DNA of 47,709 bases from Actinomycetota bacterium (GTDB lineage: Bacteria > Actinomycetota > Acidimicrobiia > Acidimicrobiales > Acidimicrobilacustridaceae): the NCBI GenBank assembly GCA_009700115.1, contig WLMU01000007.1, positions 1 to 47,709 on the forward strand, read 5' to 3'. The first letter of the stretch is position 1. Each line of letters begins with the position of its first letter. This document shows positions 14,155 through 20,767 of the stretch, piece by piece. The notes under the pieces were generated by a model, which worked only from the letters and a program-made list of their open reading frames with translations, was not told the origin of the DNA and did not search any database. The position numbers and the translations under genes were made by a program.

Positions 14155-14488
14155 CACCTGGCTCGAGTTCGGTGACATGACCTTTGCCGTGTTCGTCCTC
14201 GGCGAGAACGACTCCTCCGGCCGGCAAGGTTCGCGTTTCTCCATCGCTTGCGGTGATCCGCACCCAACCATCGAGGAAGACGACGAACTGTCGCCGCGGT
14301 GCATTGTGCGCAGCCGGCACCTGGTCGACCGCTTGCACAGTGAGGAACTGCACACGATCAACATCAACCCCAGGAGAAACCCACAGTTCAGCCACACCTC
14401 GTTCGGCCGGATTCACCGCACGATCAAGCGTGACGTCCTCAAAGTGGCTCTCACCATGTTCATCGGCCCAAATCCGCAAGTAATCCAT
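14105..14488 (-). CDS. cupin-like small protein
   Basis: APRRQFVVFLDGWVRITASDGETRTLPAGGVVLAEDEHGKGH; ATG at 14488 shares one nt with the Nramp stop (TGATG). Confidence 0.7.
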   Translation of the reverse strand: MDYLRIWADEHGESHFEDVTLDRAVNPAERGVAELWVSPGVDVDRVQFLTVQAVDQVPAAHNAPRRQFVVFLDGWVRITASDGETRTLPAGGVVLAEDEHGKGHVTELEPGVRRVLQIPLDSEEVLG

Positions 14489-15777
14489 CACGAGAAACCG
14501 AGCCATCCGGCGACAGTTTGCACAAGAACGACTGCAGCGAGAGTCGCAATGACAACCACGCAGATGAGTGCAGCAACACGGAACTTTGGTCCGTTCACTG
14601 CGTTGCCAAGTACTGCCCGTCGGTTCGCCAAGATCAAGATGAAGATCAAGATGATTGGCGTGATCAATCCGTTAATCACCTGCATGTTGATGAGCAGCGA
14701 AATTAAGTTCCCCGGCAACAACGCCACCGCCGCGCCGATCACGATCAATGTGGTGAATAGCCCCATAAACAATGGCGCTTCTCGGAAAGTCTTTGAAACG
14801 GAACGCTCGACTCCCACCGCTTCAGCAACGGCGTAGGAGGTTGCCAGCGGTACGACCGCCGCAGCCAGAGCAGAAGCTCCAAGAAGTCCAATGCCGAAGA
14901 GAACCTCTGCGGCTGACCCAGCAACGGGTTCAAGCGCTTGGGCCGCGTCCTTTGCTGATTGCAATACGCCAGTGCCACCAATTGCGGCAGCAGTTGCGAT
15001 GATGATGGCCATCGAAATGAAGTTGGCGAACAACGCACCAGTGACCGTGTCGATGCGAACTATTCGATATTCGTCGGGCCCGCGTCCGCTGTCGGCAACA
15101 GCTGCGGCTTGATAAAGCTGCATGTAGGGCGTGATGGTTGTGCCGATGAGTGCAACAACAAGAAACAGGAATTCCTTTGTTCCCAGCATGTGCGGAATGA
15201 GGGTGTTGCTTACGACCTGTCCCCAATCAGGCTTTCCAAGAATCGCGGCAATTGGATACGTGATGAAAGCGAGCCCTAACAACAGAAAGACTCGTTCGGC
15301 ATAGCGGTAGTTGCCGAAGACGACCACGGCCCAAATCGCGAGCGCTCCAATTGGAATTGAGATGTAGCGAGAAACTCCGAAGAGTTCGAATGCCGCGCCA
15401 ATTCCGGCAAATTCGGAAACGACAAGCCCGAGATTGGCGATAAGCAAACAAACGATGGCGAACGTCGAAGCGCGCAGCGGGAACTGCTCGCGAATAAGTG
15501 ACATCAACCCTTCACCGGTGTGTGCGCCCAGCCGTGCTGACATTTCCTGCACAATCACGAGAGCGATCGTCACCAGCATCATCACGAACAGGGTTCGGTA
15601 ACCGAATTGCGAACCGGCCGATGCATAGGTCGCTATGCCACCAGCATCGTTTCCAGCATTTGCTGCAATGAGTCCTGGGCCAAGAACGGCCAGCCAAATC
15701 AACCAACGACGGCGACGCTTGGGCGCGGGTGTGCGCGCACCAGAAGCCTTCACGGGATCATTGGTGGACTCGGTCAT
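14488..15777 (-). CDS. Nramp-family divalent metal transporter with non-canonical metal-site motifs
   Basis: Nramp fold features; TM1 GNDAGGIATYASAGSQFGY and TM6 IGTTITPYMQLYQ. Confidence 0.9.
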   Translation of the reverse strand: MTESTNDPVKASGARTPAPKRRRRWLIWLAVLGPGLIAANAGNDAGGIATYASAGSQFGYRTLFVMMLVTIALVIVQEMSARLGAHTGEGLMSLIREQFPLRASTFAIVCLLIANLGLVVSEFAGIGAAFELFGVSRYISIPIGALAIWAVVVFGNYRYAERVFLLLGLAFITYPIAAILGKPDWGQVVSNTLIPHMLGTKEFLFLVVALIGTTITPYMQLYQAAAVADSGRGPDEYRIVRIDTVTGALFANFISMAIIIATAAAIGGTGVLQSAKDAAQALEPVAGSAAEVLFGIGLLGASALAAAVVPLATSYAVAEAVGVERSVSKTFREAPLFMGLFTTLIVIGAAVALLPGNLISLLINMQVINGLITPIILIFILILANRRAVLGNAVNGPKFRVAALICVVVIATLAAVVLVQTVAGWLGFS

Positions 15778-15788
15778 GACAAATCAGT

Positions 15789-17123
15789 TCACGCGAGCAG
15801 TCGAGCGAAGGGTCGGCGGCTGGAATCGTGTTGCGGAATGAGTGCGTCAACCACATCATCAGCAAGGATTCGACCAATCGGACGTCCGTCATCATCGACG
15901 ACCACAATCGAGGAACCGCGGTTTTCAACGAATGACTCGATCACATCTTCGATTGGTGCTTCCACGGTGACAGTCACGGGCCAAGGCGAGCCGATAAGCG
16001 AACGAAGCGTGTCTTCAGGCTTGGCCATAAACAGGTCAATCATCAAGATGTCATCAAGCAAGGTGCCGTCGCCATCGAGCACGAGAATTGATTCCAGTCG
16101 CGCGATGTCTTCTGCTTCCTCAAGCAATTGACGCGCAGCGCTAACAGTCAGGTCGGCGTCGAACGCAAATAGTGCGGTGGTCATGAGGCCACCCGCCGTC
16201 TCTTCGTCATACCCAACCAAACGAACGAGAACCGCAGCATCTTCTTGGTTCATCGCCGACAACAACTCTTCGCGAGTTTCATCGTCGAGATCTCGAAGAG
16301 CCTCAGCGGCTTCATCGGGTTCCATTTCCGCAAGCAGTGCGGCCGCCTGTGCAGGATCCGCATCACGAAGCAGCACTGCTAATTCGTCAGGTTCCATTTC
16401 CTCAAGCGCGTCGGCTGCGGTCTCAGCATCAAGGGCAGCAAGAAGTTCTTGGCGCTGCGATCGCCCGAGTTCCTCGAGAAGATCCGCGAGCTCGCCAGGA
16501 CGAAGGCGCCGAAGTTCGCTGTTGGCACGACTCAAACGCACCGGCTCGCCAGGGTCGGAGAACGGCTGAATGGCGGCCCAGTCGATCACCCGATCTGGAT
16601 GCGGACGCACTCGCCAACGGGCAGGACCAAGACGGCGCAACAAAGTTGAGAACCCAACGTCGGCTCCCACTAGGCGGTAGCCACCACCAACGCGCGCAAG
16701 AAACAGATCAGCAGCGCGAAAGACGCGCACACCATCAACGTCGACCATCTGATGATCAATGACGTCGTCGACGAGTTTCACTTCGTTGTCACGGCGAGCA
16801 AACTGACGGAGGTCAACCTTGGCCGAGCGCAGAACGACTCGTCGTTGCTCCATTTCCCCGATCTTGTCGGCCGATACCCATGTGAGTTGTCGACCAACGC
16901 GAACGACCAACCCGGTGAGGGGCGGATACGGCTCACCTTCCCAACGAACAACAAGGTCCACCAAGCGACCGACTTCGATTCCAGAAGAATGCACAACCGG
17001 CGCGCCAGTGAGTCCCGACACGGAAAGCAGGGACTCGGCAACAGCTTCGAGGGCAAGCAGACGCTTTGTTCGTTGTTTACGGCGTTGTGCAATGGCACGT
17101 GGTGCATTGAGGGCCTGTGGCAT
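15789..17123 (-). CDS. PRC-barrel/MgtE N-terminal/CBS domain protein lacking a membrane pore
   Basis: Acidic MgtE_N repeats (LEEMEPDELAVLLRDADPAQAAALLAEMEPDEAAEALRDL), TAGGLMTT, CBS pair; no TM segments. Confidence 0.88.
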   Translation of the reverse strand: MPQALNAPRAIAQRRKQRTKRLLALEAVAESLLSVSGLTGAPVVHSSGIEVGRLVDLVVRWEGEPYPPLTGLVVRVGRQLTWVSADKIGEMEQRRVVLRSAKVDLRQFARRDNEVKLVDDVIDHQMVDVDGVRVFRAADLFLARVGGGYRLVGADVGFSTLLRRLGPARWRVRPHPDRVIDWAAIQPFSDPGEPVRLSRANSELRRLRPGELADLLEELGRSQRQELLAALDAETAADALEEMEPDELAVLLRDADPAQAAALLAEMEPDEAAEALRDLDDETREELLSAMNQEDAAVLVRLVGYDEETAGGLMTTALFAFDADLTVSAARQLLEEAEDIARLESILVLDGDGTLLDDILMIDLFMAKPEDTLRSLIGSPWPVTVTVEAPIEDVIESFVENRGSSIVVVDDDGRPIGRILADDVVDALIPQHDSSRRPFARLLA

Positions 17124-17195
17124 AACGGACTCCAGAACTAGAAAACGGACGGACCACGCCCGCTCTACCTCACTGAATCCGAATCAGGAAGACTC

Positions 17196-17261
17196 TCAGT
17201 TGGAAGCAAAGAAGGCGACGTACGACAGAAAGCACGTACTTGGGGGCTCGCTTGCTGGCAT
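17196..17261 (-). CDS. putative 21-aa leader peptide MPASEPPSTCFLSYVAFFASN
   Basis: AAGGAGGTGA SD 5 nt before ATG (AAGGAGGTGACCCCTATG); ends 72 nt upstream of the MgtE-like start. Confidence 0.6.
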   Translation of the reverse strand: MPASEPPSTCFLSYVAFFASN

Positions 17262-17414
17262 AGGGGTCACCTCCTTGAGATATCGGCCGACATTCCGTCG
17301 GCAAGACAGAGACCTTTCTACCATCTGAGGCCTCATTCGTCCCCATCGGATTTCTCGGGAGGGGTGAATTCGGACTTCGTCCATGCGCCGTTCACCGTCA
17401 GGCAGGATGGAGCA

Positions 17415-18242
17415 ATGGCAACAGCACCAGTGATTCTCCTGCCTCCTTCGGAAGGTAAAGCCGAGGGCGGCACTGGCCCGAAACTCAAGATTTCAGGGCT
17501 GTCATTTCCTCAGCTTGAAAAGCAGCGGTCAGCGGTTCGTTCTGCCCTCACCACTTCGATGAACAGCTCTGAAGCAACGCGATCAAAATTGCTCGGCGTC
17601 AAGGGCAAGGCTCTCGCATCAGCGACCGCATCAAACCTTGCAGCACTGACATCACCAACAATGCCGGCGATCGAGCGTTACACGGGTGTGCTTTATGACG
17701 CGCTTGATGTCGACTCATTGTCAGCGCGCGATCGCAAACGATTGAACAAACAGGTTCTGATCTTCAGCGGACTGTGGGGTGTCGTGCGTCCCGACGACAT
17801 GATTCCCGATTACAAGCTGAAGATGGGAGCGACACTTGCGCCGATCGGGAAGCTCTCAACCTGGTGGCGTGAATCGCTTACGCCGGCGCTTGAACAATCA
17901 GTCGCTGGGGCAGTCGTCTGGAATCTATTACCAAAAGAACATGACAGTGCGTGGGCTCCGTTTGGTTCCGCCGAAAGCACAGCCAAAACTCCAAGTGCGA
18001 TGTTCTCAGTGAAGTTTCTCGACGAGACAACTCCCGTAAAGGGCGAACGAACTTTCACTACCGTCAATCATTGGAACAAATTGTTAAAAGGCGCGCTTGT
18101 TCGATACATCCTCGAAACCGGCGCTGACGATCCGAAGGCGCTCACAACGTTCCGCCATCCCGAGGGCTACAAATACGATCGGACGCTTACGGAAATCACC
18201 CCCTCGGGAACGATTTTGAGCATGGTCCGCCCCGCTTCCTGA
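17415..18242 (+). CDS. yaaA: YaaA family peroxide stress protein (DUF328)
   Basis: ILLPPSEGKAEGG...YTGVLYDALD...LIFSGLWGVVRPDDMIPDYKLKMG. Confidence 0.92.
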   Translation: MATAPVILLPPSEGKAEGGTGPKLKISGLSFPQLEKQRSAVRSALTTSMNSSEATRSKLLGVKGKALASATASNLAALTSPTMPAIERYTGVLYDALDVDSLSARDRKRLNKQVLIFSGLWGVVRPDDMIPDYKLKMGATLAPIGKLSTWWRESLTPALEQSVAGAVVWNLLPKEHDSAWAPFGSAESTAKTPSAMFSVKFLDETTPVKGERTFTTVNHWNKLLKGALVRYILETGADDPKALTTFRHPEGYKYDRTLTEITPSGTILSMVRPAS

Positions 18243-18275: not shown

Positions 18276-20564
18276 ATGGCCAGTACCCAGAACTCGTCAT
18301 CGCTTGAGCGCATTGATCTTCCCATTGAGGGAATGACCTGCGCCGCGTGTGCGACTCGCATCAGCAAGGGGCTTGGAAAACTCGAGGGCGTCACTCAAGC
18401 CGATGTGAACCTTGCGGCGGCGCGCGCCACCGTTCATTTCGACCCGTCACTCACTGGGCGAACCACATTCACCGAGAAGATCGAATCCCTCGGCTACCAC
18501 GTCCCCGCCGTTGATCGACACGATGAAGCCGAAGCCGAGTATTCCAGAACTCTTGGAATTCGATTGATCTTCGCAGCAGCACTCACTATCCCGTTGTTGC
18601 TTATTTCGATGGTCCCAGCATTTATGTTCACCAACTGGCAGTGGGTGGCGTTCGCACTCTGCACTCCAGTGGTCTTCTACAGCGGTTGGGGGTTTCACCG
18701 AGCCGCAGCCATCAACCTCCGACATGGCACTGTCACGATGGACACGCTGGTCTCAATGGGAACACTGGCTGCCTGGACTTGGTCAACTGTTGCTCTTGTG
18801 TTCTTGCACGCAGCAGATACGGGTTCGACTTCGATGAGTGCAATGGCGGGGATGTCGTCGACAACCGACGCCGCTCACGTCTATTTCGAAACCGCCGGCG
18901 TCATCATTTCGCTCATCCTCCTAGGAAAGTGGTTTGAGGCACGCGCTCGTCGTCGTTCCGGTGATGCAATTCGAAAACTTGCGGAACTCGGTGTCAAAAC
19001 TGCTCGCCTCGAAGACGGAACTGAGATTCCGTTAGAGGAACTCACTGTTGGCATTCGTTTCGTCGTGAGGCCCGGAGAAAAGGTTGCAACGGACGGCGTA
19101 ATCGTTTCCGGTCACTCCGCCATCGACATGTCAATGATCACCGGCGAACCCGTCCCCGTGGAAGTTGGGCCAGGCGATGATGTTGTCGGCGCGACGGTGA
19201 ACGCAAACGGTCACCTTGTGGTTGAGGCAACACGAGTTGGCGACCAAACAGCCCTCGCTCAAATCGTGAAACTTGTTGAAGACGCGCAAGGTTCGCGAGC
19301 CCCTATACAACGACTCGCCGATCGGGTCGCGGGCATCTTCGTACCAATCGTGTTTGGCATCGCTATCGCAACCATCATCGGATGGAGCGTTACCGGCCAC
19401 TCCGCGCAAGACACATTCTCTGCCGCTGTCGCCGTACTGATCATTGCGTGCCCTTGCGCACTCGGTCTTGCCACACCGACGGCGATCATGGTTGGCACTG
19501 GTCGTGGTGCTCAACTTGGCATCATCATCAAAGGTGGCGAGGTGCTTGAACAGACTCGTCGAGTCGATGTGGCTGTTCTCGACAAGACCGGAACCCTCAC
19601 CGAGGGTCACATGAAACTCGTTGACGTCATCACCATGCCAACGACAACTGCCGATGCTGCTCTTCGACTCGCGGCCACGGTTGAGGCTCGTTCCGAACAT
19701 CCGATTGCCGCAGCGATTGTTGCCGGCGCCGATGCCCGGCGGCCGGGCGAAGCGTCCGGCACTCAAGTCCAAGGTTTTGAGAATCTCCCCGGTAGGGGCG
19801 TGACCGCAAAGGTCATGAGCGATTCGGGAATCGATTGGACCGTTGGGGTTGGCCGCACTTCGCTCTTCGAACGCATTGATCAGCAACTCACCGATGCTCA
19901 GGTATTGGCAGAGTCCGCCGGACGCACAGCAGTCCTCGTGGGTTGGTCGGAACATTCCGATGGCCCGCTTGTGGCCCAAGCGGTTCTCGTTGTCGCCGAT
20001 CAACTCAAACCAACCAGTGCCGAAGCAGTTGCCGATCTCCATGCACTCGGCCTTGAGGTTGTTCTTCTCACCGGAGATAACCGTCGCGCTGCTGAAACGA
20101 TCGGCGCTGAAGTTGGTGTCGACCGCGTGGTGGCCGAAGTTCTTCCCGCCGACAAAGTGGCTGAGGTCCGTCGGCTTCAAGAACAGGGCCACATGGTGGC
20201 GATGGTGGGCGACGGCATCAACGATGCACCCGCTCTTGCCCAGGCCGACCTCGGAATCGCTATAGGTACCGGAACAGACATCGCTATAGAGGCCAGCGAT
20301 CTCACCATCGTGAGCGGAGACCTCCGCGCCGCCGCCGATGCCATTGCACTGTCACGCCGAACGCTCGCGACAATCAAGGGCAATCTGTTTTGGGCGTTCG
20401 CCTACAACGTTGCTGCAATTCCGCTCGCTGCGTTTGGCGTGTTGAATCCGATGATCGCCGCCGGAACCATGGGATTCTCGTCAGTGTTTGTCGTCACCAA
20501 TTCGCTTCGCCTGCGAAGGTTTAAAGGCGTTCGCCGTCACTCCCCCACAAAGGATCAACGATGA
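18276..20564 (+). CDS. copA: copper-type heavy-metal P1B ATPase with N-terminal HMA domain
   Basis: [49 protein letters not shown]. Confidence 0.92.
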
Positions 20565-20767
20565 CCACCCGCACCTATTCCGTTCCCGGCATTTCTTGTG
20601 GTCACTGCAAGGCAGCCATCGAAGGCGAACTCGCCCCACTCGATGGCGTTGAAAGCGCGCTCGTAGACATCGATGCGAAAACCGTCACCGTTATGGGCGA
20701 GATCACCGAAGTCGATGTTCGCGCCGCAGTTGATGAAGCGGGCTACGAGGTTGCATCAGTCAACTGA
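20561..20767 (+). CDS. copZ: heavy-metal-associated (copper chaperone-like) protein
   Basis: 68 aa with [19 protein letters not shown] overlap with copA. Confidence 0.85.

Follow-up and report, generated by a model that had tools for sequence, protein, structure and literature searches.

The window analyzed here, a stretch of 47,709 nucleotides, carries on its minus strand a two-gene operon that is preceded by a short open reading frame (ORF). The genes and the elements upstream of them are:

14488–15777, minus strand: NRAMP-related transporter gene, NRMT type (Pfam PF01566; match to 7QIA)
15789–17123, minus strand: gene for a PRC/MgtE_N/CBS protein, cytosolic MgtE-like, 444 aa (Pfam PF03448 and PF00571; MgtE cytosolic domain structures)
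17196–17261, minus strand: leader ORF MPASEPPSTCFLSYVAFFASN, 21 codons (sequence and conservation)
17235–17249, minus strand: core codons GAG CCC CCA AGT ACG (Glu-Pro-Pro-Ser-Thr, codons 5–9), the presumed stall site (codon table of 32 genus-level groups)
17286–17302, minus strand: 5' hairpin GCCGAC-GGAAT-GTCGGC, upstream of the leader (sequence)
17315–17323, minus strand: extended -10 element TGGTAGAAA, promoter-like and conserved, just 5' of the leader (alignment of 20+ relatives)

In comparison with solved structures, the first gene's product is similar to the cytosolic portion of MgtE. The second gene starts 11 nt past the end of the first, and the best solved structure for its product is EleNRMT (7QIA, E = 2e-99), compared with 1e-24 for MntH. 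The metal-site signature of NRMT proteins, DxxG in TM1 and TxxA/T in TM6 (PMC8806188), is present in the alignment to 7QIA as D-A-G-G and T-T-I-T, respectively. On sequence grounds, the transporter is of the NRMT type and a predicted magnesium-type metal transporter; EleNRMT binds and transports Mg2+, and Mn2+ too (PMC8806188). A gene for a heavy-metal P-type ATPase (window positions 18276–20767) and a small gene for an HMA-domain, metallochaperone-like protein adjoin the operon, and the divergent neighbor gene at 17418–18239, which shares the leader promoter region with the operon, encodes a YaaA-type peroxide stress protein.

The 21-codon leader ORF proposed in the initial annotation was confirmed on the minus strand, with its ATG at 17261 and its TGA at 17198–17196, and so was the 72-nt gap between the leader stop and the ATG of the MgtE_N gene (17123). 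The accompanying claim that its Shine-Dalgarno (SD) sequence is the strongest in the window also holds: the 10-nt AAGGAGGTGA at 17276–17267 (minus strand) occurs once in 47.7 kb, against 0.07 expected copies, whereas the SD matches of eight nearby genes span just 3–6 nt. For the 16S tail of the source genome itself, no match was found in the incomplete assembly. The leader frame could also be opened farther upstream, giving a 62-aa ORF, but the SD, the conservation, and the start codons of the relatives favor the ATG at 17261. In near relatives, the promoter-like TGGTAGAAA likewise lies directly 5' of the leader. The GCCGAC-GTCGGC hairpin noted earlier at 17286–17302 is present, and relatives within the genus have a hairpin of different sequence at that position; it is conserved in near relatives only and is not the attenuator, the pairing segments of which are located elsewhere.

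The leader ORF recurs far above chance, at the orthologous loci as well as in lineages farther removed. Orthologous loci (n = 27) were collected by protein homology (at least 50% identity), without a sequence pattern for the upstream ORF (uORF), and their upstream DNA contains the uORF in 26 cases, with L026 as the only locus that lacks it. Within the window's family, the uORF is exactly 21 codons long in nearly all members and has the core EPPS(T), whereas the leader start lies anywhere between 133 and 195 nt from the gene. Codons 1–9 vary synonymously (codon 2, for Pro, is CCA, CCC, CCT, or CCG, and Glu is GAA or GAG), and in the 3' half the amino-acid sequence diverges between relatives. 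A strict pattern, scanned against 85,462 species genomes, matched 30 loci, each followed by an MgtE_N-type gene; most are in acidimicrobial assemblies (Microthrix-like and others), and further ones are in IMCC26256 and Acidithrix ferrooxidans. Across the phylum, a strict pattern had no real match outside the class, and the relatives from outside were found by protein homology only, with Pro-His-Ser. Several public assemblies titled 'Bifidobacterium breve' (L086–L089) carry this acidimicrobial locus on their contigs, and these records look mislabeled.

Beyond the class, GDIPHSP uORFs precede two orthologues of 54% identity, and mini-ORFs that end in RPHSR, KPHSK, KPHSN, or RPHSS before the stop codon precede the MgtE_N-NRMT operons of three Coriobacteriia-like families. 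Type-2 NRMT genes form a second class of targets, with the uORF directly 5' (QPPST, EPPST, DPPST, or KPPST). No PPS-like uORF was found ahead of type-2 MgtE_N genes; the uORF precedes NRMT instead, and in some genomes it faces the NRMT gene, with the MgtE_N gene divergent or upstream. Scanning 296 genomes with TGAARCCNCCNAGTACC produced 18 matches, namely 15 of these NRMT leaders and three chance matches to the KPPST pattern within genes (L169–L171). The KPPST uORFs of one family use a CTG start (L141–L143, L146, L150–L153, and relatives), at the place where L147 and L148 have ATG. The AAGGGGG ahead of these CTG starts might base-pair with the CCCCC run in the pair of proline codons; a GGGGG/CCCCC hairpin that hides the CTG start was rejected as a general feature, since it is absent from some family members.

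The residue that precedes the first proline is E, K, Q, D, R, or T in the 32 genus-level groups, and E, D, Q, K, R, T, or I across all leaders once GDIPHSP is included. Because this residue varies, the acidic logic of MgtL, to which the initial annotation had likened the leader, is not maintained by selection, and the second proline can itself be replaced by His. In the comparison of upstream regions that it had proposed, the ORF, the SD, and the first Pro are conserved and the acidic residue is not. At the first Pro, 29 of the 32 groups have CCC or CCT, and at the second the wobble base is free. The core Ser codon is AGT in all 32, and in the Coriobacteriia-like leaders as well; some leaders were found with patterns that contain AGT, but the 26 loci found by homology were not. 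Among the Ser codons in the genes of the window, AGT is used least (18 of 251), and none of the explanations tested accounts for its invariance. The conserved element, as judged from these alignments, is Pro-(Pro/His)-Ser with the Ser codon AGT, not acidic-Pro.

Four segments of the leader RNA can pair in alternative ways:

17266–17276, minus strand: segment 1, the leader SD AAGGAGGTGAC, pairs with segment 2 (pairing analysis)
17203–17219, minus strand: segment 2, GTCGCCTTCTTTGCTTC in the 3' part of the ORF, alternative partner of segments 1 and 3 (permutation tests, z = 4.6 and 4.7)
17157–17171, minus strand: segment 3, GAGGTAGAGCGGGCG, 3' of the leader stop (covariation tests)
17119–17130, minus strand: segment 4, GTCCGTTATGCC in the start region of the MgtE_N gene, a possible partner of segment 3 (z = 4.5)

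Covariation was assessed on 20 thinned leaders: for each pair of segments, the best helix obtained when both came from one species was set against the best obtained when they came from two, after double centering. In the window's class, helices 1:2, 2:3, and 3:gene start scored z = 4.6, 4.7, and 4.5, compared with 1.5 for the control pair 1:3 and 0.3 for the pair of spacer and gene start. Examples are GGAGGTGATGCAG/CTGCGCCACCTCC, TGCGCCACCTC/GAGGTGGCGTG, and GTGGCGTGACG/CGTCATGCCGC at L021 and GGAGGTGATGTCA/TGGCGTCATCTCC at L070. Both alternative helices covary in the Coriobacteriia-like leaders (z = 3.2 and 5.6); for the type-2 NRMT leaders, the same test supported 2:3 (z = 4.7) and neither 1:2 nor 3:gene start. 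In most leaders of the window's class, segment 2 begins ~15–20 nt past the Ser codon, which places it clear of the footprint of a ribosome that holds the second Pro in its P site, so that a stall there would free segment 2 to take segment 3 from the gene start. The window's own leader folds as predicted, with an SD accessibility of 0.48 in the stalled state vs 0.17 at the stop. Whole-leader folding with ribosome footprints showed no consistent change in start-site accessibility between the 'stalled' and 'at stop' states, and the read-out proposed below is therefore drawn from covariation only.

The leader matched no Rfam family at gathering thresholds, and permissive thresholds gave nothing of relevance. 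Among homologous operons, an Rfam scan detected the M-box (RF00380, 126–153 bits) in 16 of the 34 that lack the uORF, where it lies 5' of MgtE_N, in the gap between MgtE_N and NRMT, or 5' of NRMT; the 43 uORF loci yielded none. The probability of such exclusivity is 1.6e-7 by Fisher's test, which treats lineages that are not independent as if they were; a rough count by family gives 4e-4. No M-box was found anywhere in the source genome, the assembly of which is 85% complete. Clostridium MgtE-like/NrmT operons are under M-box control (PMC4072509). A uORF with the peptide LKVRKSKPHSK precedes the PRC/MgtE_N-NRMT operon of one genome that encodes a protein aligning end to end with 7QIA; we take this genome to be that of Eggerthella lenta and the operon to be the EleNRMT operon. 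With the M-box at equivalent positions in operons without the uORF and in 0 of 43 uORF loci, Mg2+ is the likeliest signal for the leader to read. It is no more than likely, because an Acidobacterium NrmT without an M-box behaved as a Mn2+ transporter (PMC4072509). Separately, in other Actinomycetota (L104, L105, and L099), an M-box is followed ~90–130 nt on by a strong-SD uORF before NRMT. The strong-SD uORFs ahead of NRMT at these loci and at L106 begin MESDPG or MDSEPG, or else MSPGDSPYP, and a riboswitch and an acidic-Pro leader may thus act in tandem at L104, L105, and L099.

Comparative analysis of the loci establishes the conservation of the ORF, the SD, the core codons, and the target genes, the exclusivity with the M-box, and the covariation of helices 1:2, 2:3, and 3:gene start. 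We consider it probable that the ORF encodes the leader peptide of an attenuator that works through the ribosome, likely at the level of translation though possibly through Rho, and controls the MgtE_N-NRMT operon in answer to Mg2+, and we infer a ribosome pause at Pro-Pro-Ser, low Mg2+ as its cause, and the pause as the ON state of the operon. Ribosomes would load on the very strong leader SD. At sufficient Mg2+, Pro-Pro-Ser(AGU) would be read through, segment 2 would be covered or paired with segment 1, and the free segment 3 would base-pair at the MgtE_N gene start, keeping the gene closed. At low Mg2+, the ribosome would stall at the proline pair, the AGU serine codon being next to enter, and its front edge would lie just short of segment 2; this segment would then pair with segment 3 and free the gene start. 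Such a proline-based read-out of Mg2+ has a precedent, because the mgtL prolines respond to the loss of EF-P, which relieves diproline stalling and whose absence raises Salmonella mgtA mRNA (PMC6460261), and because the shortage of m1G37 in tRNA-Pro at low Mg2+ has been proposed to act at the mgtL proline codons (PMC6335274). The earlier suggestion of a metal-sensing attenuator thus stands insofar as the leader is conserved, the RNA is attenuator-like, and the link to Mg2+ is strengthened by the M-box and EleNRMT; its acidic Glu/Asp-Pro basis falls.

The same attenuator might instead respond to Mn2+, to another divalent metal, or to translation stress exerted through EF-P or tRNA-Pro. NRMT proteins can carry Mn2+ (PMC8806188, PMC4072509), EF-P governs diproline stalls (PMC6460261, PMC11611912), and the Salmonella mgtL leader responds to proline-tRNA levels, too (PMC6460261). 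Nevertheless, sister operons hold M-box riboswitches at the equivalent place and a related leader precedes the EleNRMT operon, and we regard a signal other than Mg2+ as unlikely. As a special case of the attenuator model, the sensor could be the codon context CC(C/U)-C itself, if low Mg2+ curtails the m1G37 made by TrmD and slows the Pro codons. TrmD indeed requires Mg2+, and the m1G37-dependent codons are CCC and CCU (PMC6335274). The excess of CCC or CCT at the first proline, and not at the second, is far from window usage (binomial 2e-9), although CCC was favored by some of the pattern searches. Such a sensor seems distinctly unlikely, considering that the Pro-His-Ser leaders use CCA and CCG besides CCT, that three other leaders have CCG or CCA, and that the invariance of AGT is left unexplained.

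A sequence-specific core with an invariant AGT, alternative helices that covary, and mutual exclusivity with a riboswitch are all hard to reconcile with a uORF that merely delivers ribosomes to the mRNA, through coupling or Rho protection, and senses nothing. Despite the very strong SD, the short spacer to the gene, and the folding-based accessibility, which shows no consistent change, we judge this explanation very improbable. Smaller still is the probability that we assign to ribosome destabilization by acidic-Pro residues in the style of MgtL, which fits the Glu ahead of Pro-Pro in the window and its family but not the K, Q, R, T, or I that other lineages have before Pro.

For the Mg2+-answering attenuator, we lean, with confidence only a little better than even, toward an undescribed, phylum-wide class of Mg2+-sensing leaders, defined by Pro-(Pro/His)-Ser with an obligatory AGU, in which the ribosome replaces the M-box at NRMT operons of Actinomycetota. 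Our literature search, which did not extend to most subscription journals and preprints, found no description of the leader element. To our knowledge, Mg2+-reading leader peptides have been described chiefly in enterobacteria. If the proposed class is real, it would represent a second, unrelated type of Mg2+ leader peptide, spread over several Actinomycetota lineages and built on a minimal core that trades places with a riboswitch. At the same operons, protein-free sensing of Mg2+ could then be compared in nature with sensing by the ribosome, and the class would give a handle on how a ribosome reports on the Mg2+ available to it. An immediate test bed could be the E. lenta operon, for which a transporter structure and transport assays already exist.

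Among the known systems, MgtL (the leader of Salmonella mgtA) and MgtP (the leader of mgtCBR) are likewise short Pro-containing ORFs ahead of Mg2+ transporter genes, and proline stalling in them increases expression (PMC6460261, PMC6335274). Their prolines alternate with E or D (MEPDPTP), whereas the leader described here has Pro-(Pro/His)-Ser(AGT) and no sequence relation to them; their target is a P-type ATPase and their output Rho-dependent termination, whereas here the target is an NRMT operon and the output looks like masking of the start site. In the ermC attenuator, which senses macrolides, a leader ORF is combined with four alternative pairing segments, the last of which holds the start of the target gene. 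The present leader is ermC-like in that it has four segments with covarying 1:2 and 2:3 helices; unlike in ermC, segment 1 is the leader's own SD. The NrmT operons of Clostridium acetobutylicum consist of the same gene pair, an MgtE cytosolic-domain protein and an NRAMP-related Mg2+ transporter, but are controlled by the M-box (PMC4072509). The M-box (ykoK, RF00380) occupies, in homologous MgtE_N-NRMT operons, the same position as the leader described here, which has no aptamer.
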